Origin: a virus
IMG/VR virus record: IMGVR_UViG_3300029309_000065
Location: 25,712-51,548 of that record
DNA length: 25,837 nucleotides
Direction: 5' to 3' (one strand)
Part shown: in pieces, positions 3,180 to 25,837 of the stretch
Layout: each line of letters begins with the position of its first letter
How positions within the stretch are numbered: position 1 is the stretch's first letter
Program-made: the position numbers and the translations under genes
The notes under the pieces: model-generated
What the model was told of the DNA's origin: nothing
Database searches by the model: none
Seen by the model: only the letters and a program-made list of their open reading frames with translations

Positions 3180-3405
3180 ATTATTATTTTTTATTTTATT
3201 AGCTTCCTGTGTTACTAACAAAAAGACACCTAAAGAACCATGTTGTAAACATGCAGATGCTTTAGATACTGCACCTAATATATTACATTGGGAAACTGCG
3301 TCTGATGGAACCTTACATATCTATACAGAAAAGGACTCTATTATAGATGAGCGTGCAAGATGGGACTACATAAGAAGTTTAGATCATGATAGCCTTTGGG
3401 AATAA
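3169..3405 (+). CDS. Small predicted lipoprotein
   Basis: This 78-codon frame starts with GTG at 3169, inside the last codons of nrdA; an in-frame stop at 3154-3156 and the absence of other starts fix this choice. The N-terminus is MKVRLLFFILLASC: a basic residue, a hydrophobic core, and a lipobox Leu11-Ala12-Ser13-Cys14 for signal peptidase II. The mature part is about 65 residues with adjacent cysteines (EPCCKH) and a charged C-terminal half (SIIDERARWDYIRSL). No family is recognised. Small outer-membrane lipoproteins in phages can be outer spanins, but the partner would normally be encoded next to it on the same strand. Its overlap with nrdA implies the same transcript and probably coupled translation. 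Confidence 0.7.
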   Translation: MKVRLLFFILLASCVTNKKTPKEPCCKHADALDTAPNILHWETASDGTLHIYTEKDSIIDERARWDYIRSLDHDSLWE

Positions 3406-3406
3406 G

Positions 3407-3820: not shown

Positions 3821-3826
3821 TATAGT

Positions 3827-4117
3827 TTATTTTTTGGTTAGATCATAGATTCTCTCTTCCATCTTCTCAAACTTTTCTAATAACATCTCCACATCCTCTT
3901 GAGTATCCATTATTGTTTGACGTACCAATTCATCTTTTAGATCATACTCTACTCTATCTATAACAGGCTCTGGCATTACCATAGCCTGTGCTATGTCTGC
4001 TTGGAGTGTAAACCACATTGTTGCTAATGTAATTGTAAACCCTACAATCATACCTATTGTTTTTAAATCTAAAGTTACTTTTGTTTGTTCTCCTATCTGC
4101 GGTGCTCCGTTTGACAT
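3827..4117 (-). CDS. Single-pass membrane protein with C-terminal coiled coil
   Basis: A 96-residue protein with a polar N-terminus, one membrane segment at about residues 20-39 (IGMIVGFTITLATMWFTL), and a charged C-terminal half with heptad-like spacing (about 57-95; EDVEMLLEKFEKMEERIYDL), suggesting a coiled coil. There is no cleavable signal sequence. The layout resembles inner spanins and some phage membrane-anchored structural proteins, but no family is recognised. It lies 11 bases downstream of the 400-residue outer-membrane candidate and six bases upstream of the thioredoxin-fold gene, so the three are probably co-transcribed. Confidence 0.8.
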   Translation of the reverse strand: MSNGAPQIGEQTKVTLDLKTIGMIVGFTITLATMWFTLQADIAQAMVMPEPVIDRVEYDLKDELVRQTIMDTQEDVEMLLEKFEKMEERIYDLTKK

Positions 4118-8400: not shown

Positions 8401-11185
8401 TAGATGCCAATAAGAAATCTTTAGATGTTGCTAAGTCTTTACTGTATAATTCTGCTGTGTCAATGTCTGGTACAAAACTTAATAGTTCTTTTATATCAGC
8501 TACTGTAAATGTTCTACCACTATGAGACTGTAGTATGTTTGCATCTGATGGTTGTAATCCATCTTGTGATAAAGCAAGAGAAACATAGTGTACATATTCA
8601 AGTATAGCCTTATTGACAATACCTTCTGCAGTACCTAGTTGTGCTTTAGAAGGTTTACCAAGCAATCTTGTAAGTTGTATATTAATTTGACCAATCAATG
8701 ATCTTTGAGTTGCATTTAAGTCTGCAGTAGTATCTAGTGCATGAAGACCTTCAAAAGTTGACAAAAACTGATTAAAGTTCATAACATAAGTAATATACTT
8801 TTCATCACTTACATTAGCTGGGTCAACAACATACTCCTCAAAAGCTTTCATTTGTCTTAGTGCATCCTTAAGTAATCTTGTGTATGCAACTGACTGTGAT
8901 GCAGGCCCTTCTTGTCTAGCTATATTAATGTATGCTAGTGTATTAGCAACCTGTTCTTTATGATCTACTTCAGTTCTATCAGAAAAAATATTAGCTTCTG
9001 TCATATCTCTAACCTTACCCTCATCAATTAATGCTGAGTAGTAAGAATCTAAAGCTACACTTACTGAACTTTCTGCTGGATATAAAGAAGGATCAATGTT
9101 TTCTGCAATATTTTCTATATTTTGACTATCCTGAGTATCATATAAACCTTCATTTAGATCTTTTGATATTTGTTCTACTTCATCCTCTGCAGTAATTACA
9201 GGAGCAAAAGGAACAATCTGATCTATGTATCTTTCATTATTAAATTGAGTATGAGGTACTGCAGCATGAAACTGTAATTCTTTTCCTTTGTAGCTAAGTA
9301 ATAATGTCTGTGAAGTATCATCCGCATATGCTGATTCATATCCTTGATTCTCTGCCATTCTCCTAGCTAAACCTATCTCAATCTGATCTTGTACAGCTTG
9401 CGTCAAAGACTTTTCTGTAAGAACCTTTTCTTTACCTTCCAAATTTAATTTGTCTTGGTAATATTTGCTCTTCTCAATATCACGTTTTAAAACACCTTTT
9501 GCCCAAGTCTTTGGATTTACACTCATAACATTAGAGTCATTGATCTGCAGTTTTAAATACTTAAAATGACCAACTCTATTTATAATCAATCCATCAACCA
9601 TAGCTGCTGTCTCAGTAGCTTTATCATAAAATGTTACATTAGTAAGCATAACATCTGAAGGACTCATAAGTGTATTAATGTTCTCTGCCAAATTATTAAA
9701 AGCAGTCTGTGCTTGTTCAACAGATAACTCTTGTATGTTTGCTTGTATATCAGTAAATGTTTGATCAGCTGCTATAGCATCCATCATAAGTCTTACATCT
9801 TGCTTTACTTTAGCTGTCTTTGCACTATCAGTTTTTCTACCAATAGCATCTGATGCTGACTTTACTATATTTCTATTAGTGAGGTCATAAAACTTATTAT
9901 CCTTTTTATTTAAAATTACAAGAGGGTTAGTGTTAGGTAGAGCTGTTTTAGGTCCACCAGATAATGTATCTGACATCTCTTTGGCTTCACTAACACTATG
10001 CACTAGTCTATCTATAACACGCTTTTGTAACTCATTTCCTTTAGCTTTTACTTTATTAACAAGATTTTGTTTATTTTGACTTAAGCTATATTTTATTCTA
10101 CCATCTGCTCTAGTAAGATCTATATTGAATACTAAGCCTGAAGTATTTAATAATTTTGCAATATCAGATAAACTTGCTGACTCAGATATATTACTTACAT
10201 CAACTGTTCTACCAGTTATTACTTCATTTAAATTTTTAATTATTGAAGCAAACCAGTCTAAGAACTGTCTTATCTTATCCATAAAACTTTGTGTAGGGCT
10301 TTCTTCATACTCATTGTTGAAGTGTCTAGATAGTGCTTGAGTTACAAGCTCCATGTTTCTTTCATCTGCTGTGATGCCTCTTCTTTTATTATAAGCATCA
10401 TCAATCAGTTGTTTCATTTCTGGGAATGCTTTGCCTGCTTCTCCCAATAAACCCTCAAATAATTTTATATTGTCTAATTTAACTGCTTCTACAAATGGAT
10501 GTAGCATTTCTTCTATAGCAGTCTCATCTGTTACTCTTCCTTTAATTAATACTGCATTACCACCCACATAAAAAGAATTTATTTGATCAAAAGGAACTCT
10601 TGCTTTTCTCCACTGTGGTATAGTTTCATATAATATTCTTGCCTCAGATACAGTTGCTAGTTTAACTTTAAGGTTTGGAAATAACCTCATCAAATGAGTT
10701 ACTACCTTTCTTGCTCTTGGTGTATCCCAAGATCTAGAAGACTCTAGCATATCTTTTGCAGTAAACAAATTACTATTTAAACTTACCGCAAATGTCTTTG
10801 GTGTCTTTGTTAAGTTTACTGACTCAATAGGAATATTATTAGTCTCTAGATATTTGTTTAATCTTCTTACATTACTATTTACTAAATCATCACTTGCTTG
10901 AAGTGTTTCTTGATCTGTATTGTTTATGTAATATCTACCCTGGTAACTATGTATAATACTAAGTCTACTTAGATTATTAAGCAAAGCTTGTCCAAACTCT
11001 ATCTGTTTTAAGTTGTATAGAGTCTTTCTATTAGTTACAAATTCTGATGCTTCTGCTACTGTAGGTATAGTTTCTGTTTTTGTAAACTCTTGGTATTGAT
11101 CAATTATATTACCCGTTGCTGCATCAGTTTTATAAACTGTTTTTAATGCTTGATATTCTGCTGTATTTATATTATGACATCTCAT
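5429..11185 (-). CDS. Giant probable virion cargo protein (crAss-like) with degenerate zincin module
   Basis: An uninterrupted frame of 1918 residues starting ATG at 11185, ten bases after the stop of the 4540-residue gene. The N-terminus (MRCHNINTAEYQALKTVY) resembles what I recall of large crAss-like proteins encoded beside the RNA polymerase. Residues about 205-322 form a zincin-like module in which HExxH has become EEMLH (225-229), followed by ERNMELVTQ (275-283) and an amphipathic helix (about 301-320, DKIRQFLDWFASIIKNL). The middle is long, charged and mostly helical, with a coiled-coil stretch at about 1267-1315. At about 1665-1710 the pattern KWVMPAFRARFQ...YYDQNLGWLEGRY resembles a recurrent crAss-like virion motif. 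A hydrophobic segment (about 1765-1785, EAFLILNLFILDAML) precedes an acidic patch (GADDDDEG). I infer a capsid-packaged, ejected protein. Co-transcription with the polymerase gene is likely. Confidence 0.9.
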   Translation of the reverse strand: MRCHNINTAEYQALKTVYKTDAATGNIIDQYQEFTKTETIPTVAEASEFVTNRKTLYNLKQIEFGQALLNNLSRLSIIHSYQGRYYINNTDQETLQASDDLVNSNVRRLNKYLETNNIPIESVNLTKTPKTFAVSLNSNLFTAKDMLESSRSWDTPRARKVVTHLMRLFPNLKVKLATVSEARILYETIPQWRKARVPFDQINSFYVGGNAVLIKGRVTDETAIEEMLHPFVEAVKLDNIKLFEGLLGEAGKAFPEMKQLIDDAYNKRRGITADERNMELVTQALSRHFNNEYEESPTQSFMDKIRQFLDWFASIIKNLNEVITGRTVDVSNISESASLSDIAKLLNTSGLVFNIDLTRADGRIKYSLSQNKQNLVNKVKAKGNELQKRVIDRLVHSVSEAKEMSDTLSGGPKTALPNTNPLVILNKKDNKFYDLTNRNIVKSASDAIGRKTDSAKTAKVKQDVRLMMDAIAADQTFTDIQANIQELSVEQAQTAFNNLAENINTLMSPSDVMLTNVTFYDKATETAAMVDGLIINRVGHFKYLKLQINDSNVMSVNPKTWAKGVLKRDIEKSKYYQDKLNLEGKEKVLTEKSLTQAVQDQIEIGLARRMAENQGYESAYADDTSQTLLLSYKGKELQFHAAVPHTQFNNERYIDQIVPFAPVITAEDEVEQISKDLNEGLYDTQDSQNIENIAENIDPSLYPAESSVSVALDSYYSALIDEGKVRDMTEANIFSDRTEVDHKEQVANTLAYINIARQEGPASQSVAYTRLLKDALRQMKAFEEYVVDPANVSDEKYITYVMNFNQFLSTFEGLHALDTTADLNATQRSLIGQINIQLTRLLGKPSKAQLGTAEGIVNKAILEYVHYVSLALSQDGLQPSDANILQSHSGRTFTVADIKELLSFVPDIDTAELYSKDLATSKDFLLASMDKVFKIKRIEFLDRVKAREKKIREAGAALLQLSPQKDLQKLYDFMLEFDENGEFTGLYTQRIGQQYFTQKAALRDKLYDVNGKPFEYRKVTSLINAKQEDIDYNKDLYKKKKAFGDFMRAEVYEDGQLRDGKYHKFTDEYKQIRAKWEYFQPYANGTGGTWRMKPGTNKEAYDAYRRKYYQEQPFVKMYKDGNGDPTGAVKFDESFPSVRSDFREVKDSYLDDQGNPQSNLNPKYEAIMNPKDALGQARKNFYEVYVDNYESMLETLPKSVRNKMLGKVPLVRNNFVNDLKDRGGLFTKMLSRTVRGVKEFFTTTSTQKQVVVDQTGNIIDTLPVFYTGNARTEAALDELRAEMDILRGKRAKREINMAAYEKQMLELESKFAALRNKPSLGEINKDMTKSLIKFSTMAENFEAMGEIEDTMRAFVKVIEMRTYDAPGSATYIGKLYDKSKGMITKSIGKKNYDGLQSNAARRAHHFMRMSYYDNDKLTQGAVEKITNGLVNLSSLSYVAFNVFGNFNNLTIGQMNNAIEAMGGLYFTGQAYKRANKDAIYTGIAGIIRRTPEGIGDFADFTGRLATGSRLKLKAENYDVKKPLSLYEWLVDHYYMMDNKADIRETFGGREDTGTLWERFTSFGYSFNQGAEYFVQTKIGHAILYSTIIKNKKTGDELSLRDAWEWDAASQTAKLKEGYDTIVDKKTGFEQPYNDNFRARLRNRIREVNKQVHGNYAREDRMVIQNNFLGILIAQFHKWVMPAFRARFQHQYYDQNLGWLEGRYLSFYKFIKYITGLSTFGKRALAPHGLDKGKSMGQGFKDAYGFSEDLDGNEFFDDQKANMLLKNVYRTLGEAFLILNLFILDAMLEGADDDDEGIERKLKNFTAYTVNRTKKEMRMFVPIPGLGDFQQIYQMAKTPIASTRTLGEIGEALELTAQTPLAWLFLSDEEFKQNSSYVYQNKPRKGELKLYKNWADALPVLYTIQKYSSFEKNDDFYIK
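10220..10573 (-). other. Degenerate zincin-like module (EEMLH in place of HExxH)
   Basis: This region encodes residues about 205-322 of the 1918-residue protein. EEMLHPFVEA (225-234) sits where a metallopeptidase HExxH would be, with the first His replaced by Glu; the catalytic Glu226 and second His229 remain. ERNMELVTQALSR at 275-287 could give the third ligand. The amphipathic helix that follows mirrors the arrangement after the intact HEAFH module in the upstream gene. Metal binding is doubtful without the first His. The link to zincins is by pattern only. Confidence 0.5.
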
Positions 11186-11195: not shown

Positions 11196-14100
11196 TTATC
11201 CTAATAAACATCTCTTAACGTAATCCTCAAATGCAGCTTCATCTGCAAAGTTTTGTTGAGGAGACTCATAGAATGCTATCATTTTTTCTAACGTATCTAA
11301 GTTATTATTTTCTAATACTTCTACTTGTGTAGCTAGCTCACCCGTCAAACCAGATCCACCTTTTAAATATGGATTGACAAATATAGTATTATAAAGTTGA
11401 GTAATCCCTGGATATTTCTCAGAAATATCTGCCTCAAAGTCCATTACTAACTGACTTTCCTCTGGTAAGTTTTCTTGTGCAGCCTCAACACCTTCTGCTT
11501 CTGTCTGCACATTCTCTTCAGCCTGACCTTCTTGACTTAGTATACTACTCAGCTCAGTAACATCTGCAATGTTTATAGCTCTACTAGTGTCTTCTGCTAC
11601 AAAGTCTATATTATCTTCTGTTGCTTCTATCATAGCATTCTCATTAGATAGTGCTCTTTGTTGTAATGATCTTGGTTGTGGTGCAAAATCTTCTGCTACT
11701 ACATCATCAAAGTTTATATCTGATCCATAAGCCGTTCTAGTTTGTCCTCTATCTTTTATGTTTTGTATTACAGCTTTGTTTGTATCTCTAGCTCCAAACA
11801 TAAATCCAATACCATTCTGATAATTAGATCCCATAGTAAGATCTTGCTGATATATATACTGATTGACAATGTCTCCGTTTTTAAGTTTCTTTTCAATTAC
11901 TTCTTGTAAAGTATAGAAAGTACTGACAGGCATTGGTTGTGTGTAGTCTATCACATTATAAAACTTAGATACACTCTCATCTTTCTGTGCTGTGTGCACA
12001 AGCTTTTGATCTCTTAACTGAAAACCTTTTCTATCAAATGCTATACCTCGGTCTCCAACATCAAGATTAAGAGTTTTAATATAAGGACCTACTACATTGG
12101 ATCTAAAGTAACCATCTTCAAAATATCTTACTAAATCTTCTCTGTTCATACCAAAGGTATCTTCATACCCTTCATTATTTAAAAATACTTGATTAACGTT
12201 GTTTACTGTTTGTAAATATTCACTAATTACAAAAGGTGAAATAGCATCAAGCAAACTTCCCTTAGCTTGTTGTAATCCATCTTTGACCATTATATAGTTT
12301 ACTATTGTCATAGCATCTCTTCTGCTTATAGGATTACCATAAAGCTTGGTAAAAGAAGTTTGTAGATCTAGCTTTTGTTGTTTATTTAATCCTCTCCAAG
12401 TATTTGCTTGTAGTAAATTTAGTCCTGTGTTATTCTTCTCTGCATTTATAGGTAGCATAGTTACAAACTGTCTTAAGAAGAAGTTATCAGGATCTGACTC
12501 AGTTAGTCTTTGTACTGCATTAAATATTGTTTGCCCTTCACTAGGATAAATTAAGTTATTAGTTAATGTTGCTGCACCCTTTGTTTCTGAGTTACCAGAA
12601 TTATGTAAGTAAGCCTGAATAGTAAAGAAAGAAAGCATATCTCTTTTTACTTTCTGTTGATCATCTGCAGTAAATGCTCTTTTGTCTGTGCTTAAGTTAA
12701 CAGATATATCATCATAAATATCCATAAATGTTTCTGTGCCTGTAATAAATGTAGTAGGAACTAATTCCTGTGCTACTTGCAAGAATACATCTATATTAGA
12801 TTTTACCCAGCTATTAGTTAATATAGGACCAATATCCATCAAAGGTCTTTTTTCAGCTGCCAACACACCAATAGTTTTAAAGCTATCTAGTCTTTGTTGT
12901 ATATCACTAAAGTTTCTACCTATACCATTACCAGACATGCTAGTAATAGAACTCATAGCTCCAGTAAATCCAGATATAGAATTCATTTTATCTAATATCT
13001 GTAGTATGCTGAAATCTTCTTCTTTAGTTAATGTCTCATCTTTAAGATTTTTTTCTAATAGTGTTTCATTTACAGCAACAGTATTAGTTCCTTTTAATAA
13101 TCTTAGTCTTTCTTTTATTAGGCTTTTAAAGCTTGGGTCAAACTTATCTGTTTTGTTTTCTGCTTGCTCAAATAAATCTCTAACAGTTTTACCATTTAAT
13201 AATAATACAGCATCTGTTAACGGTACACCTAAAGCTACCATATTAGTTGCAATACCAACTGCACTTGGATGCATACCTAACTTAGCTACATAATTTTCCT
13301 TAGAGTTATCTGTAAGCATGGTAATGATAGAAGATATCTCATCTTGCTTTCTAATACCATATGTATTTACATAATTTCCATAACCAGAATACTTCTCACC
13401 TCTTAGGCTAAATTGTAAACTTCCAGGTAAGGCAATCTTGTATTCAGATAATAAACTTAAATATAAGTTTGGTGATACAGCTTTACCAATAGCTGCACCT
13501 TTGTTTACTTCGTATGAAATTGTTTTACCTGTTAAACTATCTACATCTATATTTTCATTATCTAATCTAGCTACATAGTCAGGTGCAAGAACTTTTAATT
13601 CTTCATAAGCTTGTTCTACAGCTGTAAGTGTTGCAGGTGTAACAGAAATATCTTTTACTGCTTCATTACCCATTAGTGCAAATTTGTAATCTAAAGCAGC
13701 ATTGTTTAACGGTGCTTCATATGGCTCTCCATATTCAGCTTTATATTTTTGATATTGCTGTCTAGTAATTGGTAGTCCTAATCTACTTGCTGCTCTAATA
13801 GCTTTGTTAGAAAAGTCTGAGTCAATAAGTTCTGCATCAGTGTATGAGTCTTCAAGCTTACTCCCTTGATCTCTAAATGATTTTTCTGCCTCAGCATAAA
13901 CTGTATCTTTTTCAACCTCTTGATTTATATATCTAACATAATCAGAATATTCTCTACCTGGTGTTTCACCGTATGCAAAGAACTGTTTTGCTTCTTCATC
14001 ATAATAAGAGTCTTTTACCTGAACATAAGCTTTATCAATATCAAAGTCTGCTCCTGATATTTCAACAAGTTCTGCAGGGAACATTGCAGATGAACCAAAA

Positions 14101-17100
14101 TATGCAGGCATAAAATCAACTAGTTTTATATTCATACTAGAATGATTATCCTGTGATGGTATACGCACTCCAAACATCTTTCCTATAGAACCTGGGATCT
14201 TTGCACTCTTATTATTTTGTAGTTGTGAATATATATCTGCTGAGTGTGCAGGTAATACAGCTTCGCTATAATACTGTCCTGTCCATTGTCCTTGCTCATT
14301 ATATTCTCTTAGCTGATATCTTAATCTATCTCTTACTATTAATCCTTCTTTAGGTATATTACCGTTTGTTAAATCTTCTACTTTTACTTCTGCTAATGAT
14401 TCTCCTTCTGGTACACCATCTCTAAGTACTTCATTTCTACCTAGTCTACCATTGTCTTCCATAGAGAATATACGTCTTATTACTGTAAATCCTTGATCAG
14501 ATACTAAAGCTAGTCCGTGACCAGGTATCTTTTCTTGAAAGACCTCTTTACTAAAATAACTCATAAACAGTTGCTCTGCTTTAGGTCCAGATATAGGATT
14601 ATTTAAATTAAATTTAATCTCACCTGTTTTTGGATCTACACTAAAGAACTCTAATAAATTACTGCTAGCCTTTGATGCTTTTAATGAATTAGTTGCATAT
14701 CTTAAGAATGTTTGTAAGTTTGGTGTTAGTTTGTTTCTGTCTTTACTTAGTGCAAACTCTGACATCAAACCTTCAAAAGAATATACAAGATTTCTTTTGT
14801 TTTTAAACTTAAGAATTATTCTATTGCTTAATACCTTATTATATTCTTTTCTTACATCACCAATGTTCTTGATATCAGGTCTACCCTCTATAGTAACTGG
14901 AGTGTCATCTACTTGCTCAGAAGTAACTAAAACTTTCATCTGACTTTGCTCAGATACTTTAATTTTATTTGATGGATTTTTAACCTGTTCTCTAAAGTTT
15001 CTTGCATCTAATATTATAGATGGTTGTGTTATCTCATCCCCTAATACTTGTACATTTGTCTTAAGCATTTTAAATGCACTCTCAAATCCTGCCATTGATA
15101 TACCACCAAGATCACTATCCATAGCTTCTAGTTGCAATCTTAATCTATCTAACTCTGGGTTATTCTTTGTAAAGTCTTCTGTTAATGTAATAGCAGAAAA
15201 CTTTACATATGTGTTACCATCAAAGTAAACATACTTTTTAGAGTTAAGCATTTGACCTGTATTAGCCAAACCTTGTGGTCCAAATAATTCTTCTTGTGTA
15301 AGCTGATCACCATTCTCTATTTTTGTTATAGCTCTAGCACCGGCTTCTGTAAGTGTACCTAAAGAATTTTGTGCATGTCTATGAAACTTTGATGTTACAT
15401 AAACTTGAGCATCACCTCTATCAATAGTATTACCACTAAACTCTGATGTAATCTCTGCTTCTTTAAGTATTACAGCATTGATTTGCTCTGTAGGTTCATT
15501 GACACCCATCTTTGAATTAGACACTGGACTATATATACTATCACCTGCGGCATTCTGTCCTTTTGCTCTTTTAATTTGTTTTATAGAGTCTTCTAATATA
15601 AGAGCTTGATCTCCTAGTAATAATTCATTTAGTGATTTTGTATTTAGAAAATCATTAAAGAATATTTGTCTTAAGTTATAATTTTCATTAGATCTTAAGT
15701 TAAGTTTTTTAGCAGCATCTCTAGCTTTCTCTTGAGCTACAGCACCCTCTACACCCTGGACTAATCCATTCTTTATATCATTACCTATTTTATCTATAGC
15801 ACCCGTGCTATCCAATAAAGATCTAAATCTGTCAAACTTTGCATTAAGTTGATCTGTAAGTTCTTTTCTATATTTCTTGTTACTAATACCTGCTTCTGTT
15901 AGTGCTTTCTTAAAACTTACTGGATTCTGTGATGTAGCTGCTATCTCCAAAGCTTTTTTAGTTTCTGGTGTAATAAGATCCTTAACGTTAAACATTAGAT
16001 TCTTTCTCATTATACCGTCTACATCAGGAATATTATAACCAGGTATTTCTTTTGCAATTGTTATCTCTCTACCATCTTTAGTTGTAACATTCTGCAATGG
16101 TAAGTTTGCTGTCTCAGGATCATTTTCTCTGAGGATTCTATTATACTCATTCTCTACAAAATCACTAATAGCGTCAACATAAGCAGCAGTAACCTGTGCA
16201 TTTGTTCCTGACACAGCTTGAACTACTGGTAATGATATCATATCTCCCGTATTAGATGACTCCATTACTCTAATTAGTACAGGAGCAACAGCCCCATCAT
16301 CCATTCTCGTTCTTAATGAGTTACTTCTTGCTACATAGTCAACTGTGTAGTTGTTTACAAGTGAGGTTACAAACTGCTTTGGAGTAAAGCTTCCATACTC
16401 TGTTGTTTGTAATACACCACTTATATAAGAGTCATAGTCTTTACTTCTATCTAGAGTCTTCACTTCTTTTAATCCTGACAACCTTTGTATCTTTAAGAGA
16501 TTGTCATCAGACATATTTAAAAACTCTAGATTATTTAGTAAGTAGTTATTCTCTAAAAACTTGTCTGCTGCTAATTTATCTATTTCCGTTTCAGTATTTA
16601 AAGCAAACACCCTTTCTAAATGGAACGTTGGCTTTTGATGTGCATTTACTAAATCTCCATTTACATTTTTAAATACTGATAAACCAATTGACTCATCAAA
16701 TATTGCATTATTTATAGCAAGAGTTTTAAGTCTAGCAATTGCTCCATCATTTTCTGAATTAAATAGATCTCCATCTTTATTTATAATTTCTCTAATAAAG
16801 TATATACCTGTTGGATCAATAGGTTTTGCCATATCATTAAAAGATAAAAGCATACTTTGTGCAGCATTTTTAGTTTGTGTAGAATTAGAAAGTATACTAA
16901 ACTGTATATACAAAGGACTGAGTTTTATACCTACACCATCATAAACATTCTGTGCAAGGTTTCTAGATAAGTTTTCTAATCCATCTTGATTACCACTATA
17001 ACCTTTTGGTTGTGTAAGCTCTGCTCTTAGATCATCTAAATATCCTAATGCATTCTTTTTCAGTTGCGGATTTATTTTCCACTCCATACTCTTAGTAGTA

Positions 17101-20100
17101 TAGGCTTGACCCCATAACTCATTTTGTGTATGTATATCATCTCTTTCTGCTGCTGAGAAAGAAACTGTATTATTGGTATTGTCTTGTTGTAAGAATAACC
17201 AATCTACTTTATAATTACTAAATCCTTTTGTAATCTGATTAAACAATAATGGATTCTTAATTGTTTGTGGTAGTTGTAGTTCATTTATCTCTGTAATGGA
17301 ATCATAGTTAATACCTATATCATTAAAGATTGCTCTTACAGCAGCCTTTGTATTAGGATTACTATTACTAAATATATACATTGCCTGCATAATCTTTAGT
17401 GGATCTTGTATATTCTTAACTGCTTTTGTAATACCGTTATAGGTCTGATAAGCATCTATAGGGATAACAAGTTTCTCTCCATTATCTAGAACTTCATTTC
17501 CAAAGACATCTGTGTATGGCATTGTTATAGTAGCAAGATATTGTCTTATATATGTAGGTAAAGAAGATAGACCTCCAGACATATAGGCTTCTTTACCAAA
17601 CTGAGTTACATTTCTAAGACCTTCATTATTTTCAAACTCATCAATAACATCTTCTTCTATTTGTCTTTGTACATCTATAATTTCTAAAACTTCAAACACT
17701 GCTTTATATACAGGACTATCTTTTATGTCTTCTGTAACATCATAAGTCAGAGCATTGTGTATTTTGTCCAACTGTTCAACAGCAACAATATTAGCTTCGT
17801 TTGAACTGTCTGAATATTTAGAGTTTACAGGATTATTTTTATTATAGAGCCATGCAAAATCCTCTAATACTTCTTCAAAGATTTGATCATTGCTAATACT
17901 TGGATCATCATTACTTACCTTTCTAGCTACATAACTAGCAGCCATAACTCTAACAATTGGGTTAGCAATGCTGCTTTCTAAATATAGCTGACCTTTTTGA
18001 CTATTAACTTGTAATGCTTCATAAGGCAGTATAGCATTAGATATAATAACTTTAGGGCTTGGGTCTAAAGTAAAATCATTTGCAATAACAGATGCATCAG
18101 CAAACTTACCTGAGTCAATCTTTTGGAATAAAGTCTGCAGTTGAGTTTGTGTATATGAACCAAATATTCTTTTAAACCACTCTAGTATACGTGTAAAAAA
18201 GCTTTTAATTGGTGCAGATGCTTTAGAGTTTTTAGGGCCAGTCTTAAATAATTCAAACTGATCAGCCATATACTCTTCATAGTATCTATTCTCTAATTCT
18301 GCTTTGTCCATAGCAGCATACTCATCAGCAGAGTTTTTAAACTTCTCCAACTCTGTATTAAGACTAAGGCCTGCTTTTCTAAGTTCTGCTCTTTTTTCTT
18401 TTTTAGCTTCAGCTAATAATTCTTGCTGTTGTTGAGGTGTAAGTAACATTTGATACACACCATGGAAAGCCTCATGATATCTAAAAGGATTAGAAGCTCC
18501 TGTGTATATTGTACCGGCTGCTCTAAGACCACCACCTATAGATGCCATATCTAATACAAAAGCACCTACTCTTACACCACCTGCTTTCATGTTATTACCA
18601 AGAGACTCAACATCTCCAATACCAATAAAGTCTGGTAAGTTTTGTCTTGCCCATGACTTAAACACATCTATGTCTTCTACATCTTTTGCAGATAGTTTGA
18701 AGTCATTCTCAGATAAAACTTTATTAGATGGCTTAATAAGTTTATCTCTTTCTTTAATAAGATCTTGATATACTTTATCAGCTCTTAATGCCTTTATTTT
18801 TTTCTTTTCTCCTACTTCTTTTATTATCTCAGCTTCTCTTTCTTGTATAGATCTATTAACTGCATCAAGAGGAGTCTCTGCTTTTAGTGTAGCAAGTATG
18901 TCATTGTTTTGTTGTTCTGTAACATTATCTTTAAGATACTGTTCTATGTCTTTACTTATAACTTTTCTTATATCTTGTTGCCTTGGTGATAACTCAATAC
19001 CAGCCATAATATTTTGTGCAATAGATTCTACTAACTCAGCCTTTTGTGCGTCAGAAAGATTATTATCTACAAAAGCAGAAAAGACATCATCACTTATTGG
19101 ATCACCTGTTTCTTCTGACACAGCAACTGCTTCATCAATAGCATCTTGAGATATCTTGTCTCCCATCTCTGCAATCTTTCTTGCTCTTGCAGCCTCTGGT
19201 GATTCTTCTCTAATTGGTACAACATCTTGCTCAGACCGTGGTCTAGCTAGTATAATACCTTTGTCTTTTGCTCCTTGTATTGCAGATGCATCAGCAGTAA
19301 ACTCTATATACTGCCCCACTCTTACTTCTTTACCAAGCTTAGTTGTTAAGGTTTGTAACATTTCATCTATAGGCATATCTAATGGTATAGATCTCTTATA
19401 GTTTGCTTTTGATAATGTTGTAAGATTAAAAGATGCTGGTGCATCATCTAATAGTTTTTTGAATATTCTATCTAAATGTTGTATAGGTGTACCTTCTTTT
19501 TGTTGATCAGCCATCTCATAAAATGAGGTGTGGTCTTTACCTGTGTTTCTGTTAAATACAGTTGCTCTTATTGCTCCATCAGGTGCAACATCAATAGTAA
19601 TTTTATTACCACTTGTTGAGCTAATAAAGAAATCTCCATACTTTTCTTGGAATGCTTTATTAAATTCATCATTAAAGCCACGGTTCTTGTATCCTTCTTT
19701 GTTATCTTTTCTTGCTACACTAGCTTGTTGTAATATATCATTCATCATTGCACTCAACTGATCATCTCCTACATATGGAGCTTTTGCTGTTGCCAATGTA
19801 TATACACCACCCGGTGACTGTACTGCCATTATATATCTGTCAGTATATCCTCCTAGTGGCCCTTCTTTTTCACCACTCATCATCTTAGCCCAAAGACCGT
19901 TGTTCTTTAAACCATTCTCAACTTTTTCTGCCAATTCATTCTTTTGTTGTCCAGATAAGTTTGACATAACAATAGGGTCTCCAATAGCATTACCTTGTTT
20001 ATCACGAGATATATCATATATAATAATATCCCCTGTGCTATTTGTTTTGTATTGTAATTCTGCTAATGGTATCTCAGGATTTGTACCTTTTCTATATGCT

Positions 20101-23100
20101 GGTATACCTTCATTTCTTATAACCTGTAAACCTTCACCCAAAACACCTGCGTCTTCATCAGAACTTATTTTGTCTGATGCAACAGATATTAATGCTGCCT
20201 GTTTTGCAAAACCTTCTGCTACTTGTTCTATAGCTTGTTCAATACTTTGACCATCTGCAGGAATTATAATATTTCTTGCAAACTCTGGTGTCATAACTGA
20301 TGGATCTACAGTTTTCTTTTGACCATCTTGAAAATATAAACTATCATTTGGTAGATACGCAAATATACCATCTTGTGGTATTGGTGTTATTTGTAGTTCA
20401 TTTAACCTTATGTTTACATCAGCTAATACTGATACAGGTAATCTTAGTGATATGGTAAATCTTTCTCTTTGTTTTCTAATATAATCATTAGGAACAACAT
20501 CTTGACCAGCATTGAACCTATCATCATCAATAGGCTGCTCAGCCAATGGGTTAACATCAAAGTTTACAATTAATTGACTAAACTCTTCTGGCTTTAAGAC
20601 ATCAACAATAGCTCTTAACCTATCTGCCGCCATACCTGGTGAATCACCTGGTAATGTTTTAGCATATGCTCTATCTAATCTATTAGAAAATAATTTAGAA
20701 GCATTCTTAGGTAATGTATTAAATACTAACTTTTCTAATTCATACCTTCTACTAAAGTCTAATTCTATTTCTGCTTTGCTATTGCTATTTCTTACTTTGT
20801 AGTCTGAATTATAAAACTCTGCAGGTACTAAGTATATCTGTCCACCTTTATTTTCTATGCTATTTACTCTAAACTCTTCTCCTGTAATCTTGTCAAAGAC
20901 TGATATACCTTTTGATAGTTGCATGCCATCAAACAAAAAGATATCACCTCCAGATATTTCTCTATCTAATATATCTCTATCTGCTATAGCTTGAGCCATA
21001 GTAGTGTATGTTCCTGTTTTCTCAAAGTTGTCACTTATAACACCAAGCTGTGATTCATTTAAATCAATACCTTGTTTGTCTACAATTTTATAAAAAGCAC
21101 CATCTGGAGTATCTACTTGCACAATATTGAAAGCAATACCTTCACCACCTTGAGGTATTTTCTGTGTTCTTGCACCAGTAGCTTGTGTTGTTGTAAATAT
21201 ATCAATGTTTAAATCTAATGATCTAAGTACATCTTGTACTAAAGGCTCTTCTCTTGCTTCTCTACTATTTAAATAATTTTGGAATCCGCTTTCACTTGCT
21301 AACTCTTTCTGTGTAGGTATTCTTTTTCTATCTACCTTTTGTCCACCTTCTTCAACAGTTATATCATAACCCTTACCCCATATTCTTTTTAATGCATCAA
21401 ATGCTGTTTTTATTCTTACACCATCTTCTGATAGTCTCCAGTCTGCAAAAGACTTTGAGTCTTTGTCAAAAGCAGATTCTTTATACTTACGGTATTCTCT
21501 TTCTAAAACACTTTGTAATATACTAGATCTAGATGTATCACCTATGTTTACATCTACACCAGCATCCACTAATTTTTCTTCTACGTCTATTTGGGCTTCT
21601 TCTTTTTGTTGCTCTTGAAACTCTTCTGCCTTTACTTCTAATTCTGTAGTTAGACGGTATGTATTTATAAGTGCAATAATATCATTAGAAAGTTCTTGGT
21701 CAACATCTAAGTTTAATGCTCCACCAATAGCTCTACCATCTATAGAAAATTGTCCTGATGCTAATCCTTCTAGTAAACCATCAGCACCAATCTCATCAGA
21801 TAAAAATGCTCTGATTAAATCAGGGCTCATATAAACTTCTAACTTAGCTAGATCATTTATCAGTATATTCTTTTTATTAGTAGCAAGATATGCTTCTGTT
21901 TGTTTTCTATATACTTCAGCTCTATTCTTGTATAAATACTGATAATACTCTTCATTTCTATTAACTAACTCCATCATGCCTTCTGGAGTAGACAGGTAGT
22001 TTGCAGATTGAGAAAAAGCAAAAGCATCTTCTTGTAGTGCTGCATGATCTGTAAGTTCTTCTAATAAGTTTTGGAAGTTATCAGGATTTATAAAATCTGC
22101 ATTCTCACCAGCAATACCAGATAAATATTGTTTTAATGGTCCTTCTATTTTAGCAGTCTTTCTTCTATCAAAGAAACCTTTCTTAGTTAGGTTTTTAGGA
22201 TCTGTTAATACTTTAACATATCTATCAAGATCTTTTCTTTTTCTTTTCTTTTTATTTATTACAGCTTGATCTCCACCACCATCTTCTAGTGCAGCTATCT
22301 CTTTATCTAGTATACCTATCTCTGTTTTTATTGTCTCAGCATTAACTAAAACTCTTATATCACCATAAGCTTGTTTTGCAAAAATAGGCTCGTTTGCAAA
22401 AGCTGCTTCAATGTTTTTTTGTCTTTGTATAGCATCTACAAAACTTTCATTAGCAAATATGTATAACATTTTAGTTTGGTCTATAGCTCTATTAAAGAAC
22501 ATAGCATCTCTATATGCTTTGCCATCTTTTGGTATGTCAACCATATTGATCTTTTTAGAATCAAAAAACTCATTCATACCTTTCTTGGCTATTCTCTCAC
22601 CAAACTGATCTACTCTAGCTATCTCTCTAGCTATCTCTTCTCTAAGTCTTTGAGGTTTTCTACCTAAGTCACTTTCATTAAATGCTTCTGATAATTCTTT
22701 ATCTGACATTTTAGAGAAATCATTTAATGAATCTCTATATAGACTTATAGTACCATCCATATACTTACTGTACATGTTCATAAACCTAGAATCAAATCTA
22801 TTATTAAAGTAATCATACTTATCATTCAATGCTAATGATAAATTTGCTATACCATCTGCTTGATCTTGAAATTGTAAGTTTAGGTTTTTTGGACCAAGTA
22901 TACCATGTAAAGAATTTTTAAAATTACCACTCAGTTCATTAGCAGAATTTACTACATCATTTACTACTTGCTCTTCTGTCTGCCTTTGTTTAGCAGCCAT
23001 GTCTTCTACTTCTTGACCAAAAAATCTACCAAATTTTTTAGAAGAGCTAGCACTTGCTCTAGCTTTACTATATATAGCTGGTACGCCTTGAAATAAAACT

Positions 23101-24818
23101 TGCTGATATGGTCCCATTAAACCACCAATAAGAAAACCTGATGCAAATGTTTGAAAACCTTCTTTAGTAAATATTTCTTTTCCTGCTGCTCCATAGAATC
23201 CTGATAGAGTATTAGGTCCACCCGCAAGAGGTCCTCTCAATAAAGAGCTATAATATCCACCTGTAGCAGCTGATACAGCTTCCTGAGAAACTTCTTGTGC
23301 ACCTTCTACCATTCCCTTTACACCATATCTTAACATAACACCTGCTGCTACTTTCGCTCCTCTTTTCCATGAGCCTACAGAAAAAGCTGCTTTAAGTTCT
23401 TGTGGTAATGCTACTAGTGCCCACTTGCTTTTTACTGCATGCTTGCCCGGTCCTACCTTTAAAATTCTTTGTAGGTTAGCAGCAGTATTTCTATTTAATC
23501 TTTTAGCCCAACTACCAAAAACGTTTTTAAATACAATACGGTTAGATGCTGCTATAATAGCAAAGTTTGGAGCTAGTGTCTTCCATGATGCATTGTTTGC
23601 TGCTATTTGTATCTCTCTTATATCATCAGCACTTACACCTTTACCAGCATTTTGTGCATTCTTTTCACGCATACCACTTTCAAGAACTTGGTTATAAACC
23701 ATACCAGCTTCCATCTTTGCCTCTGACAAAGCAGCATTGTACATTCTCATATCTCTGTAGAATGCACCAAATACATCTGTATTTTTTCCTATATTATATA
23801 GGTTCTGGAATGTGTTTCCTGTAGTTTTCCAATTCTTTATTGTGTGTGCTAGTTCTGGTGCAATAAGTCTACCAGTAAAATTAGCACCAGTTCTTGCAAC
23901 ATTGTAAAAATCTCTAGCATTTTCAATACTTCTAATGCTTCTTAATAATTGTGTAGAAGCTTTATAGCCTCTTGCTATTGCTTGTGGTATTCTTGTAAGT
24001 TGTGCTAGGTTTTTTAAAGTTAGTGCACCAAATCCTGCAAGGGTTGTACCTCCTGATGGTATGGCTCCTACTGCTGCAATACCTGCTCCAATTACTTCTT
24101 CAACTGCAATCTGATAAATAATACCTGCTGAATAAGCAAAGTTTAATCCTGTGTTACCTAAAAATCCTGCCACTGATCCGGTTGTACTTCCACCTATTCT
24201 CATGGCATCCTCCATAGTAGCTGCACCAGTTAAATCAGGTGAGTCATATCCATCACCATCAAAAAAATCTGCTATAGATCTATATCCTGAGTATCTACCA
24301 GATCTAAATAAAGAGAAAAATGGGTTTAGACCTCTACTCAATGAATCACCAAAAGTTTCATTAGTATTTAAGATTGCGTCCATATTTGCATATGGAGTAA
24401 ATCCTATATCACTAAATGTATCACTTTCATATATTTTATCAAAGTTTATAGTTCTTGCATTTGCATATATAGGTTTTGGTAAAGAGCCTGGGTTTTCTTC
24501 TAAAGGTGCTTTAAATAATTTATCCATACTCTCTTCTGGAGTAAGGTTTCTTGTAGGATCAGTATTGATTACAGATGCTTGTGCACCCATAACTGAATTA
24601 GCATAGGTAACTGGAGATACCTGATCAAAAAATTGTGTATATTCTGCAACACTTCTTCTATATTGATCATCTACAAGATTTTCATTATCCGGCAAGTACT
24701 TAGTAAAGTCCTCATACGGCATACTCAAATCTATAGGATTTATATCTACGGAGTCCTGTCTTATCCTCTCTTGAAGATTATAATCAGGCTGAGGTAATGT
24801 TAATTTCTCTTCTGCCAT
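11196..24818 (-). CDS. Giant virion RNA polymerase polyprotein of crAss-like type with zincin metallopeptidase domain
   Basis: An unbroken 4540-codon frame, roughly half a megadalton, starting ATG 24818 after AAGGGAGA. Residues about 200-600 hold several hydrophobic or amphipathic stretches (GIIYQIAVEEVIGAGIAAVG; FLIGGLMGPYQQVLF) and EGAQEVSQE (505-513), as in ejected phage virion proteins. A helical region with a basic patch (KKKRKRK, about 853) follows. Residues about 2080-2245 carry HEAFH (2115-2119) with EEYMADQFE (from 2181) and a helix RILEWFKRIFG: a probable zincin metallopeptidase. The C-terminal third is the polymerase: GDAQVYVTSKFHR (about 3136) suits the first double-psi barrel; RIPSQ...GADFDIDK, with Asp3591, Asp3593 and Asp3595, is the second barrel and catalytic loop; MLTDNSKENYVAKLG (about 3837) suits the bridge-helix region. 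The tail is acidic. phi14:2 gp66, the characterised relative, is about 2180 residues, so this is a much larger fusion. Expected role: packaged enzyme transcribing early genes. Confidence 0.9.
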   Translation of the reverse strand: MAEEKLTLPQPDYNLQERIRQDSVDINPIDLSMPYEDFTKYLPDNENLVDDQYRRSVAEYTQFFDQVSPVTYANSVMGAQASVINTDPTRNLTPEESMDKLFKAPLEENPGSLPKPIYANARTINFDKIYESDTFSDIGFTPYANMDAILNTNETFGDSLSRGLNPFFSLFRSGRYSGYRSIADFFDGDGYDSPDLTGAATMEDAMRIGGSTTGSVAGFLGNTGLNFAYSAGIIYQIAVEEVIGAGIAAVGAIPSGGTTLAGFGALTLKNLAQLTRIPQAIARGYKASTQLLRSIRSIENARDFYNVARTGANFTGRLIAPELAHTIKNWKTTGNTFQNLYNIGKNTDVFGAFYRDMRMYNAALSEAKMEAGMVYNQVLESGMREKNAQNAGKGVSADDIREIQIAANNASWKTLAPNFAIIAASNRIVFKNVFGSWAKRLNRNTAANLQRILKVGPGKHAVKSKWALVALPQELKAAFSVGSWKRGAKVAAGVMLRYGVKGMVEGAQEVSQEAVSAATGGYYSSLLRGPLAGGPNTLSGFYGAAGKEIFTKEGFQTFASGFLIGGLMGPYQQVLFQGVPAIYSKARASASSSKKFGRFFGQEVEDMAAKQRQTEEQVVNDVVNSANELSGNFKNSLHGILGPKNLNLQFQDQADGIANLSLALNDKYDYFNNRFDSRFMNMYSKYMDGTISLYRDSLNDFSKMSDKELSEAFNESDLGRKPQRLREEIAREIARVDQFGERIAKKGMNEFFDSKKINMVDIPKDGKAYRDAMFFNRAIDQTKMLYIFANESFVDAIQRQKNIEAAFANEPIFAKQAYGDIRVLVNAETIKTEIGILDKEIAALEDGGGDQAVINKKKRKRKDLDRYVKVLTDPKNLTKKGFFDRRKTAKIEGPLKQYLSGIAGENADFINPDNFQNLLEELTDHAALQEDAFAFSQSANYLSTPEGMMELVNRNEEYYQYLYKNRAEVYRKQTEAYLATNKKNILINDLAKLEVYMSPDLIRAFLSDEIGADGLLEGLASGQFSIDGRAIGGALNLDVDQELSNDIIALINTYRLTTELEVKAEEFQEQQKEEAQIDVEEKLVDAGVDVNIGDTSRSSILQSVLEREYRKYKESAFDKDSKSFADWRLSEDGVRIKTAFDALKRIWGKGYDITVEEGGQKVDRKRIPTQKELASESGFQNYLNSREAREEPLVQDVLRSLDLNIDIFTTTQATGARTQKIPQGGEGIAFNIVQVDTPDGAFYKIVDKQGIDLNESQLGVISDNFEKTGTYTTMAQAIADRDILDREISGGDIFLFDGMQLSKGISVFDKITGEEFRVNSIENKGGQIYLVPAEFYNSDYKVRNSNSKAEIELDFSRRYELEKLVFNTLPKNASKLFSNRLDRAYAKTLPGDSPGMAADRLRAIVDVLKPEEFSQLIVNFDVNPLAEQPIDDDRFNAGQDVVPNDYIRKQRERFTISLRLPVSVLADVNIRLNELQITPIPQDGIFAYLPNDSLYFQDGQKKTVDPSVMTPEFARNIIIPADGQSIEQAIEQVAEGFAKQAALISVASDKISSDEDAGVLGEGLQVIRNEGIPAYRKGTNPEIPLAELQYKTNSTGDIIIYDISRDKQGNAIGDPIVMSNLSGQQKNELAEKVENGLKNNGLWAKMMSGEKEGPLGGYTDRYIMAVQSPGGVYTLATAKAPYVGDDQLSAMMNDILQQASVARKDNKEGYKNRGFNDEFNKAFQEKYGDFFISSTSGNKITIDVAPDGAIRATVFNRNTGKDHTSFYEMADQQKEGTPIQHLDRIFKKLLDDAPASFNLTTLSKANYKRSIPLDMPIDEMLQTLTTKLGKEVRVGQYIEFTADASAIQGAKDKGIILARPRSEQDVVPIREESPEAARARKIAEMGDKISQDAIDEAVAVSEETGDPISDDVFSAFVDNNLSDAQKAELVESIAQNIMAGIELSPRQQDIRKVISKDIEQYLKDNVTEQQNNDILATLKAETPLDAVNRSIQEREAEIIKEVGEKKKIKALRADKVYQDLIKERDKLIKPSNKVLSENDFKLSAKDVEDIDVFKSWARQNLPDFIGIGDVESLGNNMKAGGVRVGAFVLDMASIGGGLRAAGTIYTGASNPFRYHEAFHGVYQMLLTPQQQQELLAEAKKEKRAELRKAGLSLNTELEKFKNSADEYAAMDKAELENRYYEEYMADQFELFKTGPKNSKASAPIKSFFTRILEWFKRIFGSYTQTQLQTLFQKIDSGKFADASVIANDFTLDPSPKVIISNAILPYEALQVNSQKGQLYLESSIANPIVRVMAASYVARKVSNDDPSISNDQIFEEVLEDFAWLYNKNNPVNSKYSDSSNEANIVAVEQLDKIHNALTYDVTEDIKDSPVYKAVFEVLEIIDVQRQIEEDVIDEFENNEGLRNVTQFGKEAYMSGGLSSLPTYIRQYLATITMPYTDVFGNEVLDNGEKLVIPIDAYQTYNGITKAVKNIQDPLKIMQAMYIFSNSNPNTKAAVRAIFNDIGINYDSITEINELQLPQTIKNPLLFNQITKGFSNYKVDWLFLQQDNTNNTVSFSAAERDDIHTQNELWGQAYTTKSMEWKINPQLKKNALGYLDDLRAELTQPKGYSGNQDGLENLSRNLAQNVYDGVGIKLSPLYIQFSILSNSTQTKNAAQSMLLSFNDMAKPIDPTGIYFIREIINKDGDLFNSENDGAIARLKTLAINNAIFDESIGLSVFKNVNGDLVNAHQKPTFHLERVFALNTETEIDKLAADKFLENNYLLNNLEFLNMSDDNLLKIQRLSGLKEVKTLDRSKDYDSYISGVLQTTEYGSFTPKQFVTSLVNNYTVDYVARSNSLRTRMDDGAVAPVLIRVMESSNTGDMISLPVVQAVSGTNAQVTAAYVDAISDFVENEYNRILRENDPETANLPLQNVTTKDGREITIAKEIPGYNIPDVDGIMRKNLMFNVKDLITPETKKALEIAATSQNPVSFKKALTEAGISNKKYRKELTDQLNAKFDRFRSLLDSTGAIDKIGNDIKNGLVQGVEGAVAQEKARDAAKKLNLRSNENYNLRQIFFNDFLNTKSLNELLLGDQALILEDSIKQIKRAKGQNAAGDSIYSPVSNSKMGVNEPTEQINAVILKEAEITSEFSGNTIDRGDAQVYVTSKFHRHAQNSLGTLTEAGARAITKIENGDQLTQEELFGPQGLANTGQMLNSKKYVYFDGNTYVKFSAITLTEDFTKNNPELDRLRLQLEAMDSDLGGISMAGFESAFKMLKTNVQVLGDEITQPSIILDARNFREQVKNPSNKIKVSEQSQMKVLVTSEQVDDTPVTIEGRPDIKNIGDVRKEYNKVLSNRIILKFKNKRNLVYSFEGLMSEFALSKDRNKLTPNLQTFLRYATNSLKASKASSNLLEFFSVDPKTGEIKFNLNNPISGPKAEQLFMSYFSKEVFQEKIPGHGLALVSDQGFTVIRRIFSMEDNGRLGRNEVLRDGVPEGESLAEVKVEDLTNGNIPKEGLIVRDRLRYQLREYNEQGQWTGQYYSEAVLPAHSADIYSQLQNNKSAKIPGSIGKMFGVRIPSQDNHSSMNIKLVDFMPAYFGSSAMFPAELVEISGADFDIDKAYVQVKDSYYDEEAKQFFAYGETPGREYSDYVRYINQEVEKDTVYAEAEKSFRDQGSKLEDSYTDAELIDSDFSNKAIRAASRLGLPITRQQYQKYKAEYGEPYEAPLNNAALDYKFALMGNEAVKDISVTPATLTAVEQAYEELKVLAPDYVARLDNENIDVDSLTGKTISYEVNKGAAIGKAVSPNLYLSLLSEYKIALPGSLQFSLRGEKYSGYGNYVNTYGIRKQDEISSIITMLTDNSKENYVAKLGMHPSAVGIATNMVALGVPLTDAVLLLNGKTVRDLFEQAENKTDKFDPSFKSLIKERLRLLKGTNTVAVNETLLEKNLKDETLTKEEDFSILQILDKMNSISGFTGAMSSITSMSGNGIGRNFSDIQQRLDSFKTIGVLAAEKRPLMDIGPILTNSWVKSNIDVFLQVAQELVPTTFITGTETFMDIYDDISVNLSTDKRAFTADDQQKVKRDMLSFFTIQAYLHNSGNSETKGAATLTNNLIYPSEGQTIFNAVQRLTESDPDNFFLRQFVTMLPINAEKNNTGLNLLQANTWRGLNKQQKLDLQTSFTKLYGNPISRRDAMTIVNYIMVKDGLQQAKGSLLDAISPFVISEYLQTVNNVNQVFLNNEGYEDTFGMNREDLVRYFEDGYFRSNVVGPYIKTLNLDVGDRGIAFDRKGFQLRDQKLVHTAQKDESVSKFYNVIDYTQPMPVSTFYTLQEVIEKKLKNGDIVNQYIYQQDLTMGSNYQNGIGFMFGARDTNKAVIQNIKDRGQTRTAYGSDINFDDVVAEDFAPQPRSLQQRALSNENAMIEATEDNIDFVAEDTSRAINIADVTELSSILSQEGQAEENVQTEAEGVEAAQENLPEESQLVMDFEADISEKYPGITQLYNTIFVNPYLKGGSGLTGELATQVEVLENNNLDTLEKMIAFYESPQQNFADEAAFEDYVKRCLLG
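13179..15551 (-). other. RNA polymerase catalytic core (two double-psi barrels, DFDID loop)
   Basis: This region encodes residues about 3090-3880 of the giant protein. The DFDID codons are at 14034-14048. In YonO-like and crAss-like single-chain polymerases, and in the related eukaryotic RNAi polymerases, a DxDxD loop in the second double-psi barrel binds the catalytic magnesium. Upstream, GVRIPSQDNHSSMNIKLVDF and FPAELVEISGADFDIDK have the spacing and pattern of that barrel. Domain edges are rough. Confidence 0.85.
18084..18581 (-). other. Zincin metallopeptidase-like domain (HEAFH)
   Basis: This region encodes residues about 2080-2245 of the giant protein. NPFRYHEAFHGVYQMLL places HEAFH at 2115-2119: two zinc-ligand histidines and the catalytic glutamate. 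EEYMADQFELF at about 2181 offers a third, glutamate, ligand roughly 62 residues on, as in gluzincin-like folds. An amphipathic helix follows (about 2210-2225). Similar HEAFH modules occur, as I recall, in giant crAss-like virion proteins. Activity and substrate are unknown; self-processing of the polyprotein is one option. Confidence 0.75.
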
Positions 24819-24829: not shown

Positions 24830-25837
24830 TTATTGGTTTAGTGCCCTAGCGTCAGTATATACACTCTTGGCTTCTGATTCACTTGCTGACGGATTCTCAG
24901 TTTGATATTCTTCTACAAATTTATCTTCAGTCATACTTTCAGCTCTTTGTTGATATTGTGCTAAATTATTTAATTTATCTCTTTCTTGAAAATTTTGTTG
25001 CAATTGAAAGAATCTATTATTTAAGTCTTGAGAATAATTCCTAGATGCATCAAATGGTAAAATGTAGCTTTTATTTGTTGTTGTATATAAATTGTTTATA
25101 TCTGTTGATGTAGGATCATATATATTAAATGAAAGAGACACAGATACTTGACCACCACCTATATCTTGGAATACTGCTTTACCTGGTGAAAATCCTGCAT
25201 CATAATCATTATATTCATAAGTAAATGTTTTATCTTTACTAAGTGACATTTTTTGTTCTATGTATGATGTGTTGCTTGTGTTGTCAAAATTATTAGGATT
25301 TTGATCTCTACCACCTGTTCTATCATATACAAACATTACACCCTGATTCATTGCAGCTTTCAGTTGTTTAGTCATCTGGTCATCATCCTCATAAGCTGCA
25401 AGAATTTCTTTTCTATAAGCTGGATCAAAATCTGATATAACATATCCACCCATAGCATTTCTATCTTCTCCATCTGCTTTTAAAGAACCTAAATTATTAT
25501 AATATGTAATTTTAAATTTACCTTTAGTATCAGGATTAAACATTGTATTAAATATTGCATTAGATACTTGATACTCCATATCTGACATATCAACACCACC
25601 CTCAACATTAAACTCTTCAAAGTCTTTAACATCTTCTGGTTTGTACAAAAGAGAAACAACGCTTGTTGGATCACTAGATATGTAGTTATATTGATTTAAC
25701 ATATTTGCTAATACAACATCTTGTTGTGATCCAGCTACTGGTTTTGTACTAGAGGTAATACTATAAGTAGGATTAAATACAGTATTACCATAAGGTTGAT
25801 TTGTAGTTATACCTCTAGAAGATCCACTAACAGTTCT
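24830..25837 (-). CDS. Probable virion protein, C-terminal part (5' end outside the window)
   Basis: The stop codon is at 24830-24832. An ATG at 25702 would give 290 residues, but the same frame continues without a stop through base 25837, adding at least 45 residues (including TTNQPYGNTVFNPTYS and KPVAGSQQDVVLANM). The gene is therefore most likely a longer one entering from the right. The visible 335 residues are soluble-looking: Asn/Asp/Tyr-rich, with beta-type stretches (GGGQVSVSLSFNIYD; NKSYILPFD) and a Gln/Glu-rich helical C-terminus (FFQLQQNFQERDKLNNLAQYQQRAESM). No catalytic motif or membrane segment is seen and no family is recognised. It ends 11 bases before the polymerase gene, so it belongs to the same late, structural transcript. 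Confidence 0.8.
   Translation of the reverse strand, partial: RTVSGSSRGITTNQPYGNTVFNPTYSITSSTKPVAGSQQDVVLANMLNQYNYISSDPTSVVSLLYKPEDVKDFEEFNVEGGVDMSDMEYQVSNAIFNTMFNPDTKGKFKITYYNNLGSLKADGEDRNAMGGYVISDFDPAYRKEILAAYEDDDQMTKQLKAAMNQGVMFVYDRTGGRDQNPNNFDNTSNTSYIEQKMSLSKDKTFTYEYNDYDAGFSPGKAVFQDIGGGQVSVSLSFNIYDPTSTDINNLYTTTNKSYILPFDASRNYSQDLNNRFFQLQQNFQERDKLNNLAQYQQRAESMTEDKFVEEYQTENPSASESEAKSVYTDARALNQ

Follow-up and report, generated by a model that had tools for sequence, protein, structure and literature searches.

The transcription block of crAss-like phages consists of several large multidomain proteins (PMC7886860), and fusions of virion RNA polymerases to large proteins occur in both crAss-like and N4-related phages (PMC10770324). 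In phage phi14:2, the genes g067 and g066 are separate and consecutive with a one-base overlap, g065 is next, and the record annotation places the g065–g067 proteins in virions by MS/MS. Phage crAss001 has three genes, of which gp50 encodes the polymerase and gp47 lies on the opposite strand. Its virion cargo comprises gp47, gp49 and gp50, with gp45 and gp46 proposed as a channel, and ejection is proposed to require partial unfolding (PMC10172136). The Steigviridae likewise have three separate genes. In the Intestiviridae and Crevaviridae, the polymerase is joined to the downstream gp49-type protein in giant fused virion RNA polymerases of 4,070–4,422 aa (e.g., p-crAssphage KP06_gp44), and the zincin protein is its own gene; p-crAssphage KP06_gp45 is annotated in its record as an RNAP-associated protein fused to a zincin protease. 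The tail tape measure of Thermus phage P23-45, gp96, is 5,002 aa long and includes a virion RNA polymerase as a fused part (PMC10770324).

We analyzed a 25,837-nucleotide stretch of viral DNA (the window), bases 25712–51548 of a 51,548-base IMG/VR virus record, so that the end of the window is the end of the contig. Its longest open reading frame has an ATG start, 4,540 codons and no stops, and runs on the minus strand at 11196–24818, an interval across which the plus strand is rich in stops. Residue i of the encoded 4,540-aa protein, the giant, starts at window position 24818-3(i-1). HEAFH is found at residues 2115–2119 and DFDID at residues 3591–3595; the single unbroken chain with both motifs that was described in the initial annotation is thus borne out.

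The C-terminal half of the giant was readily connected to known polymerases. When aa 2500–4540 were used in tblastn against phage records, the matches were mostly to polymerase or large structural genes of crAss-like and Flavobacterium/Cellulophaga phages, and they reached phi14:2 g066 (“catalytic RNA polymerase subunit”) and crAss001 gp50. The blastp E values were 2e-14 for gp50, 3e-8 for g066 and 5e-5 for gp47. A profile built from 47 diverse relatives matched a single PDB entry, 6VR4, which is phi14:2 gp66 (E 1.5e-17), and hhalign of the polymerase against the gp50 group gave 98.7%. The alignment across families has a common block, GxRIPTx...LP...G...P.E....SGxDFDxDK. The DxDxD metal-binding loop of a double-psi barrel, in its GxRIPxx...SGxDFDxDK context, is present in the giant as DFDID inside GxRIPxQ...SGADFDIDK (aa 3591–3595; 14034–14048, minus strand), and phi14:2 gp66 likewise has a DFDID loop.

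Structure models gave the same picture over a longer region. An AlphaFold model of aa 2951–4150 (pLDDT 80) matched 6VR4 with a Foldseek E of 3e-26 and a Z of 18.9 over 903 residues (6VR4 chain 741–1867), the next-best structures being QDE-1 and RDR polymerases with Z of ~13–14. The model of aa 1950–3050 (pLDDT 78) matched 6VR4 residues 95–861 from model residue 326 onward, with a Z of 13.4 over 610 residues and 5.4 for the runner-up. The two models combined map gp66 residues 95–1867 contiguously onto the giant, and together with the profile they place both barrels in one chain with the overall 6VR4 fold. Based on these models and alignments, aa ~2275–4070 (12609–17996, minus strand) are predicted to be a crAss-like two-barrel virion RNA polymerase of the phi14:2 gp66 family. 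The double-psi-barrel fold that had been proposed for residues 3100–3900 was therefore found there by tblastn, by the profile search and by structural comparison with gp66. An N4-like polymerase was set aside, as the Foldseek and Z scores pointed to the two-barrel fold rather than the T7-like single-subunit fold of the N4-type giant polymerase, although absence from a match list is no proof. The C-terminal tail beyond the polymerase (aa 4181–4540; 11199–12278, minus strand) is fast-evolving (dN/dS 0.40) and of variable length.

The N-terminal half (aa 1–2245; 18084–24818, minus strand) is gp47-like, the match to crAss001 gp47-type proteins covering residues ~400–2245. With aa 401–800 as the hhalign query, aa ~414–712 aligned with gp47 373–637 (P 97%, E 2e-10), and aa 2055–2244 aligned with gp47 2104–2295, including an identical HEAFH. 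For aa ~800–2000, no relatives outside the clade were detectable other than one weak match to Leptolyngbya phage Lbo-JY46. A 1,552-aa protein of this phage (L052/L053) matches the gp47-like half (P 96%); the polymerase profile found nothing in its whole record, a weak negative from a search run without a positive control.

The zincin-like domain occupies aa 2045–2239 (18102–18686, minus strand), and hhalign scored it at 98% with the Suoliviridae giants and 97% with crAss001 gp47. An alignment of 22 relatives revealed a candidate third-ligand motif, EEYxAD, ~62 residues after HEAFH (EEYMAD in the giant, aa 2181–2186). HEAFH, EEY and A were invariant and D was conserved in >90% of these relatives; the 22 rows had been picked for HEAFH, and only the conservation of EEYxAD is independent. 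The pattern fits a predicted zincin of the HExxH...ExxAD type, and selection on aa 2000–2200 is very strong (dN/dS 0.03). The best PDB profile match of the domain was a Pro-Pro endopeptidase, with a weak E of 0.04, and Pfam gave no peptidase family worth naming. No peptidase was listed in the structural search with the model of aa 1950–3050, a large model that spans both this domain and part of the polymerase. The earlier metallopeptidase call holds as a probable one: HEAFH lies in a conserved domain common to crAss001 gp47, and the EYxAD-like motif is nearly invariant.

The “membrane-active region” of the initial annotation is unsupported beyond one borderline hydrophobic segment. Only two 19-residue segments score above a Kyte-Doolittle cut-off of 1.2: aa 232–250 (24069–24125, minus strand; 1.54), the sole one in the N-terminal half, and aa 3847–3865, which falls within the polymerase core. 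Shuffled versions of the giant had a mean of 11.4 passing segments, so the chain is less hydrophobic than expected by chance. Two relatives have a segment at the position equivalent to aa ~232, and in some gp47-type proteins one lies near the N terminus.

The two halves meet at a well-defined point. In the model of aa 1950–3050, confidence drops to a pLDDT <50 at aa 2233–2260 (model residues 284–311; 18039–18122, minus strand), between the zincin and the polymerase. Between two relatives 8% apart in protein, dN/dS was 0.23 overall and 0.06 across the join (aa 2200–2300). These values, with that of the zincin domain, indicate that the joined frame is translated as such.

The genes on either side of the giant complete an order familiar from phi14:2. 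Immediately downstream is a gene for a 1,918-aa polymerase-associated protein (5429–11185, minus strand), which matches crAss001 gp49, phi14:2 g065 and the C-terminal part of the Intestiviridae fused gene. Upstream, the contig end cuts a gene of which the C-terminal 335 aa remain (24830–25837, minus strand); a relative has a 1,107-aa protein in this location with 45% identity to them. Its position is equivalent to that of the cargo protein gene gp46/g068, but a sequence match to gp46/g068 was undetectable. The order g068-g067-g066-g065 of phi14:2 corresponds to upstream gene, giant and 1,918-aa gene here, and because of this match the giant can be read as g067 and g066 minus the stop between them. 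Profile, structure and gene order agree: the giant is g067 and g066 fused end to end. It had been stressed previously that the phi14:2 polymerase is about half the length of the giant. This is true of gp66, but it reflects how the genes are partitioned, as g067 (1,797 aa) and g066 (2,180 aa) sum to 3,977 aa.

Several features of the neighboring proteins were observed. The 1,918-aa protein has EEMLH at residues 225–229 (10499–10513, minus strand), a site at which the gp49/g065 homologues of phi14:2, cr1, cr114, cr7 and cr273 have HExxH (HEIMH, HELVH, HEMLH etc.), and two relatives and cr118 also have EExxH. We interpret this site as a second, putative zincin-like motif whose first histidine was lost in part of the gp49/g065 family. 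A thioredoxin-fold protein with a signal-peptide-like start is encoded at 3407–3820 (minus strand; Pfam E 2e-6); it has WAEFNKDN in place of WCxxC and is probably redox-inactive. The adjoining gene (4129–5331) encodes a 400-aa protein that also has a signal-peptide-like start and is 67% identical in a relative. Elsewhere in the window’s own record (L005:4269–6710) there is a pair of genes for a VWA/DUF2201 metallopeptidase-like protein and an AAA ATPase.

The giant looks unique at first sight because searches of Pfam, PHROGs and the PDB with its single sequence, phmmer among them, gave nothing useful. There was also no match by blastn against phage records, by tblastn with the N-terminal half alone or in an IMG/VR scan with the C-terminal half, and relatives had to be collected before profile searches yielded results. 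IMG/VR scans with the neighbor protein and with the catalytic-loop alignment succeeded, the latter giving at least 515 confirmed relatives, of which 80 were kept. Four of these were too short upstream to judge. Among the 76 testable relatives, HEAFH and DFDID were in one frame in 72 and in split frames in four. One of the split cases has two frame changes within ~130 bases, possible sequence errors (L062), one has a 534-base gap at aa ~2980 (L082), one has a break at aa ~3231–3278 (L107), and in the fourth the giant frame is split too (L072). Intact frames of 4,553 or 4,649 aa, with both motifs equivalently placed, were found in contigs of five other records (two distinct sequences), and these are ~62% identical to the giant across ~4,485 residues.

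The closest parallel in described phages is in the Suoliviridae. All five genomes examined, from three subfamilies, encode a single chain of 4,272–5,794 aa that includes both HEA[FW]H and DFD[IV]D (cr1_1, 4,551 aa; cr118_1, 4,946; cr114_1, 4,272; cr7_1, 5,443; cr273_1, 5,794; the chains of cr114_1, cr7_1 and cr273_1 require TAG to be read as Gln). In each, a gp47-type zincin (HEAFH or HEAWH) is followed ~1,440–1,880 residues on by a DFD[IV]D polymerase and then by a gp49-type gene of 1,584–2,043 aa, and this same arrangement is present in the window. In cr1_1 (YP_010110695), for example, HEAFH is at 2001 and DFDVD at 3445, versus 2115 and 3591 in the giant. The Suoliviridae sequences are, however, very distant, and the likeness is detectable mainly at the zincin and the catalytic loop. 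The “structural proteins” of Flavobacterium phages Fpv1 and FPSV-S29 (4,401 and 4,419 aa) similarly join a large N-terminal protein to a phi14:2-like polymerase (DYDID) and are followed by a 1,596-aa gp49-like gene, but their N-terminal half is without HExxH, and HEVIH is instead near the C terminus. The zincin–polymerase fusion is therefore already present across the Suoliviridae, and the window adds a member rather than a new kind of system. Given also the environmental relatives and the crAss-like fusions already in print, the view that this architecture is exceptional was not upheld. The accompanying statement that the parts are distributed among several genes in other crAss-like genomes is correct for the Steigviridae and partly so for the Intestiviridae and Crevaviridae, but not for the Suoliviridae or the window clade.

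Other large polymerase genes were encountered in these searches. In a Neisseriaceae MAG contig (L143), the frame is longer still (at least 5,839 aa) and includes HEAMH, GSDFDID and HELGH. A 228,862-base contig of the isolate Spirosoma oryzae DSM 28354 (L138, L163, L164, L165) likely contains an integrated relative: it encodes a polymerase of crAss-like type (41% over the loop region), a portal with 32% identity to the one of a window relative, a DUF2201 and AAA pair like that of the window’s record, and a tyrosine integrase beyond which ordinary bacterial genes lie. The polymerase chain of this element (3,356 aa) has a Dda-like helicase at its end (aa 2745–3315, E 2e-61) and is thus another fusion. 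In bajarodcaudo virus 1 (L020 13771–21951), the frame for the polymerase ends close to the catalytic loop; next come an endonuclease gene and a further frame of 930 aa, a layout that resembles insertion of a homing element at the active site.

The window’s contig is without terminase, portal and capsid genes, which were instead taken from a relative whose giant is 62% identical. All three match PHROGs seen in crAss-like phages; the terminase matched those of crAss-like and Flavobacterium phages, and the portal was closest to those of the cyanophage Lbo-JY46 (31%, E 2e-104) and Cellulophaga phi17:2. The environmental clade to which the window belongs is large and is related to the crAss-like phages. 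In the polymerase tree this clade is placed apart from the Suoliviridae, beside cr127 (Crevaviridae), which hints at independent origins of the fusions. The hint is not significant, as AU tests rejected neither a single fused clade (p 0.08) nor a grouping of the window clade with the Suoliviridae (p 0.11).

Overall, our data support that the giant is a protein of the crAss-like transcription block, an end-to-end fusion of a gp47/g067-type virion protein with its zincin and a gp50/g066-type virion RNA polymerase, and we give this reading a probability of about 0.9. The homology of the parts, their fold, their colinearity and the conservation of the fused chain establish what the protein is, and its packaging, delivery and activities are inferred from better-known relatives. 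By analogy with phi14:2 and crAss001, the chain would be packaged as capsid cargo together with its 1,918-aa gp49-like partner. As in the crAss001 model, it would then exit via the tail into the cell, partly unfolded, behind separate channel proteins. Its C-terminal half would refold and transcribe early genes from the entering DNA, using DFDID to bind the catalytic metal, and the zincin may help in crossing the envelope or may act on a protein of the host or the phage. Fusion would secure 1:1 dosage and co-delivery of both halves.

One alternative, which we regard as unlikely, is that the giant resembles gp96 of P23-45 and that its non-polymerase part is a tail or pore component anchoring the polymerase at the envelope. 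Transcription would then be coupled to genome entry, and the polymerase would never be free. P23-45 gp96 likewise has its polymerase, metallopeptidase and membrane domains in one giant chain, and the authors of that work suggest a similar role as a possibility for crAss-like fusions (PMC10770324); the recurrence of the hydrophobic segment near aa 232 in relatives would suit such an anchor. However, gp96 is a siphovirus tape measure with an N-terminal DFDGD polymerase, whereas the polymerase is in the C-terminal half here, and the non-polymerase parts are unrelated as far as known. The near absence of hydrophobic segments from the chain also argues against this role, as does the presence in crAss001 of dedicated cargo/channel proteins, gp45 and gp46 (PMC10172136). 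In one relative of the window, an 888-aa protein encoded apart from the giant includes a stretch like crAss001 gp45, and therefore the channel function need not sit in the giant.

It is less probable still that the giant is a self-processing polyprotein, in which the zincin or another phage protease cuts at the join (aa ~2233–2260) during assembly or entry to release a gp47-like protein and a free polymerase. The low-confidence linker lies exactly where such a cut would be expected, HEAFH and EYxAD are conserved under very strong selection, and the two parts function as separate genes in relatives. Yet no consensus cut site was identified, and at the join there is strong purifying selection, not drift. 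Self-cutting is further disfavored because there is a zincin without a fusion (crAss001 gp47) and a fusion without the zincin (Fpv1). HExxH is missing from phi14:2 g067, from the gp47-type proteins of cr111 and from the N-terminal half of the Fpv1 fusion, and thus the zincin does not track a need to separate the halves. Since the domain also occurs in a gp47 encoded apart from the polymerase, and some gp47-type proteins do not have it, its main role is probably something other than cutting the fusion. With regard to virion proteomics of a fused form, there is none in the main text of the phi-crAss002 paper, and we found no Fpv1 proteomics paper.

A broader proposal, that zincin–polymerase joining arose more than once in crAss-like phages and that the chain, once delivered, is matured by the protease within it, appears very improbable to us; if it were true, these phages would inject a self-processing polyprotein whose cutting turns on early transcription. 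That the frame is an assembly artefact or fortuitous and represents two or more genes, for which the four split relatives might be cited, is refuted as far as sequence can refute it by the intact frames of similar length in five other records, the single frame in the great majority of relatives and the purifying selection on the join.

The fusion is thus the rule in a large environmental clade, with strong selection running through a join that is now mapped precisely, between aa ~2245 and ~2275. This makes the passage of ~500-kDa chains through a tail, with refolding or else cutting, a question that can be tested in one protein.
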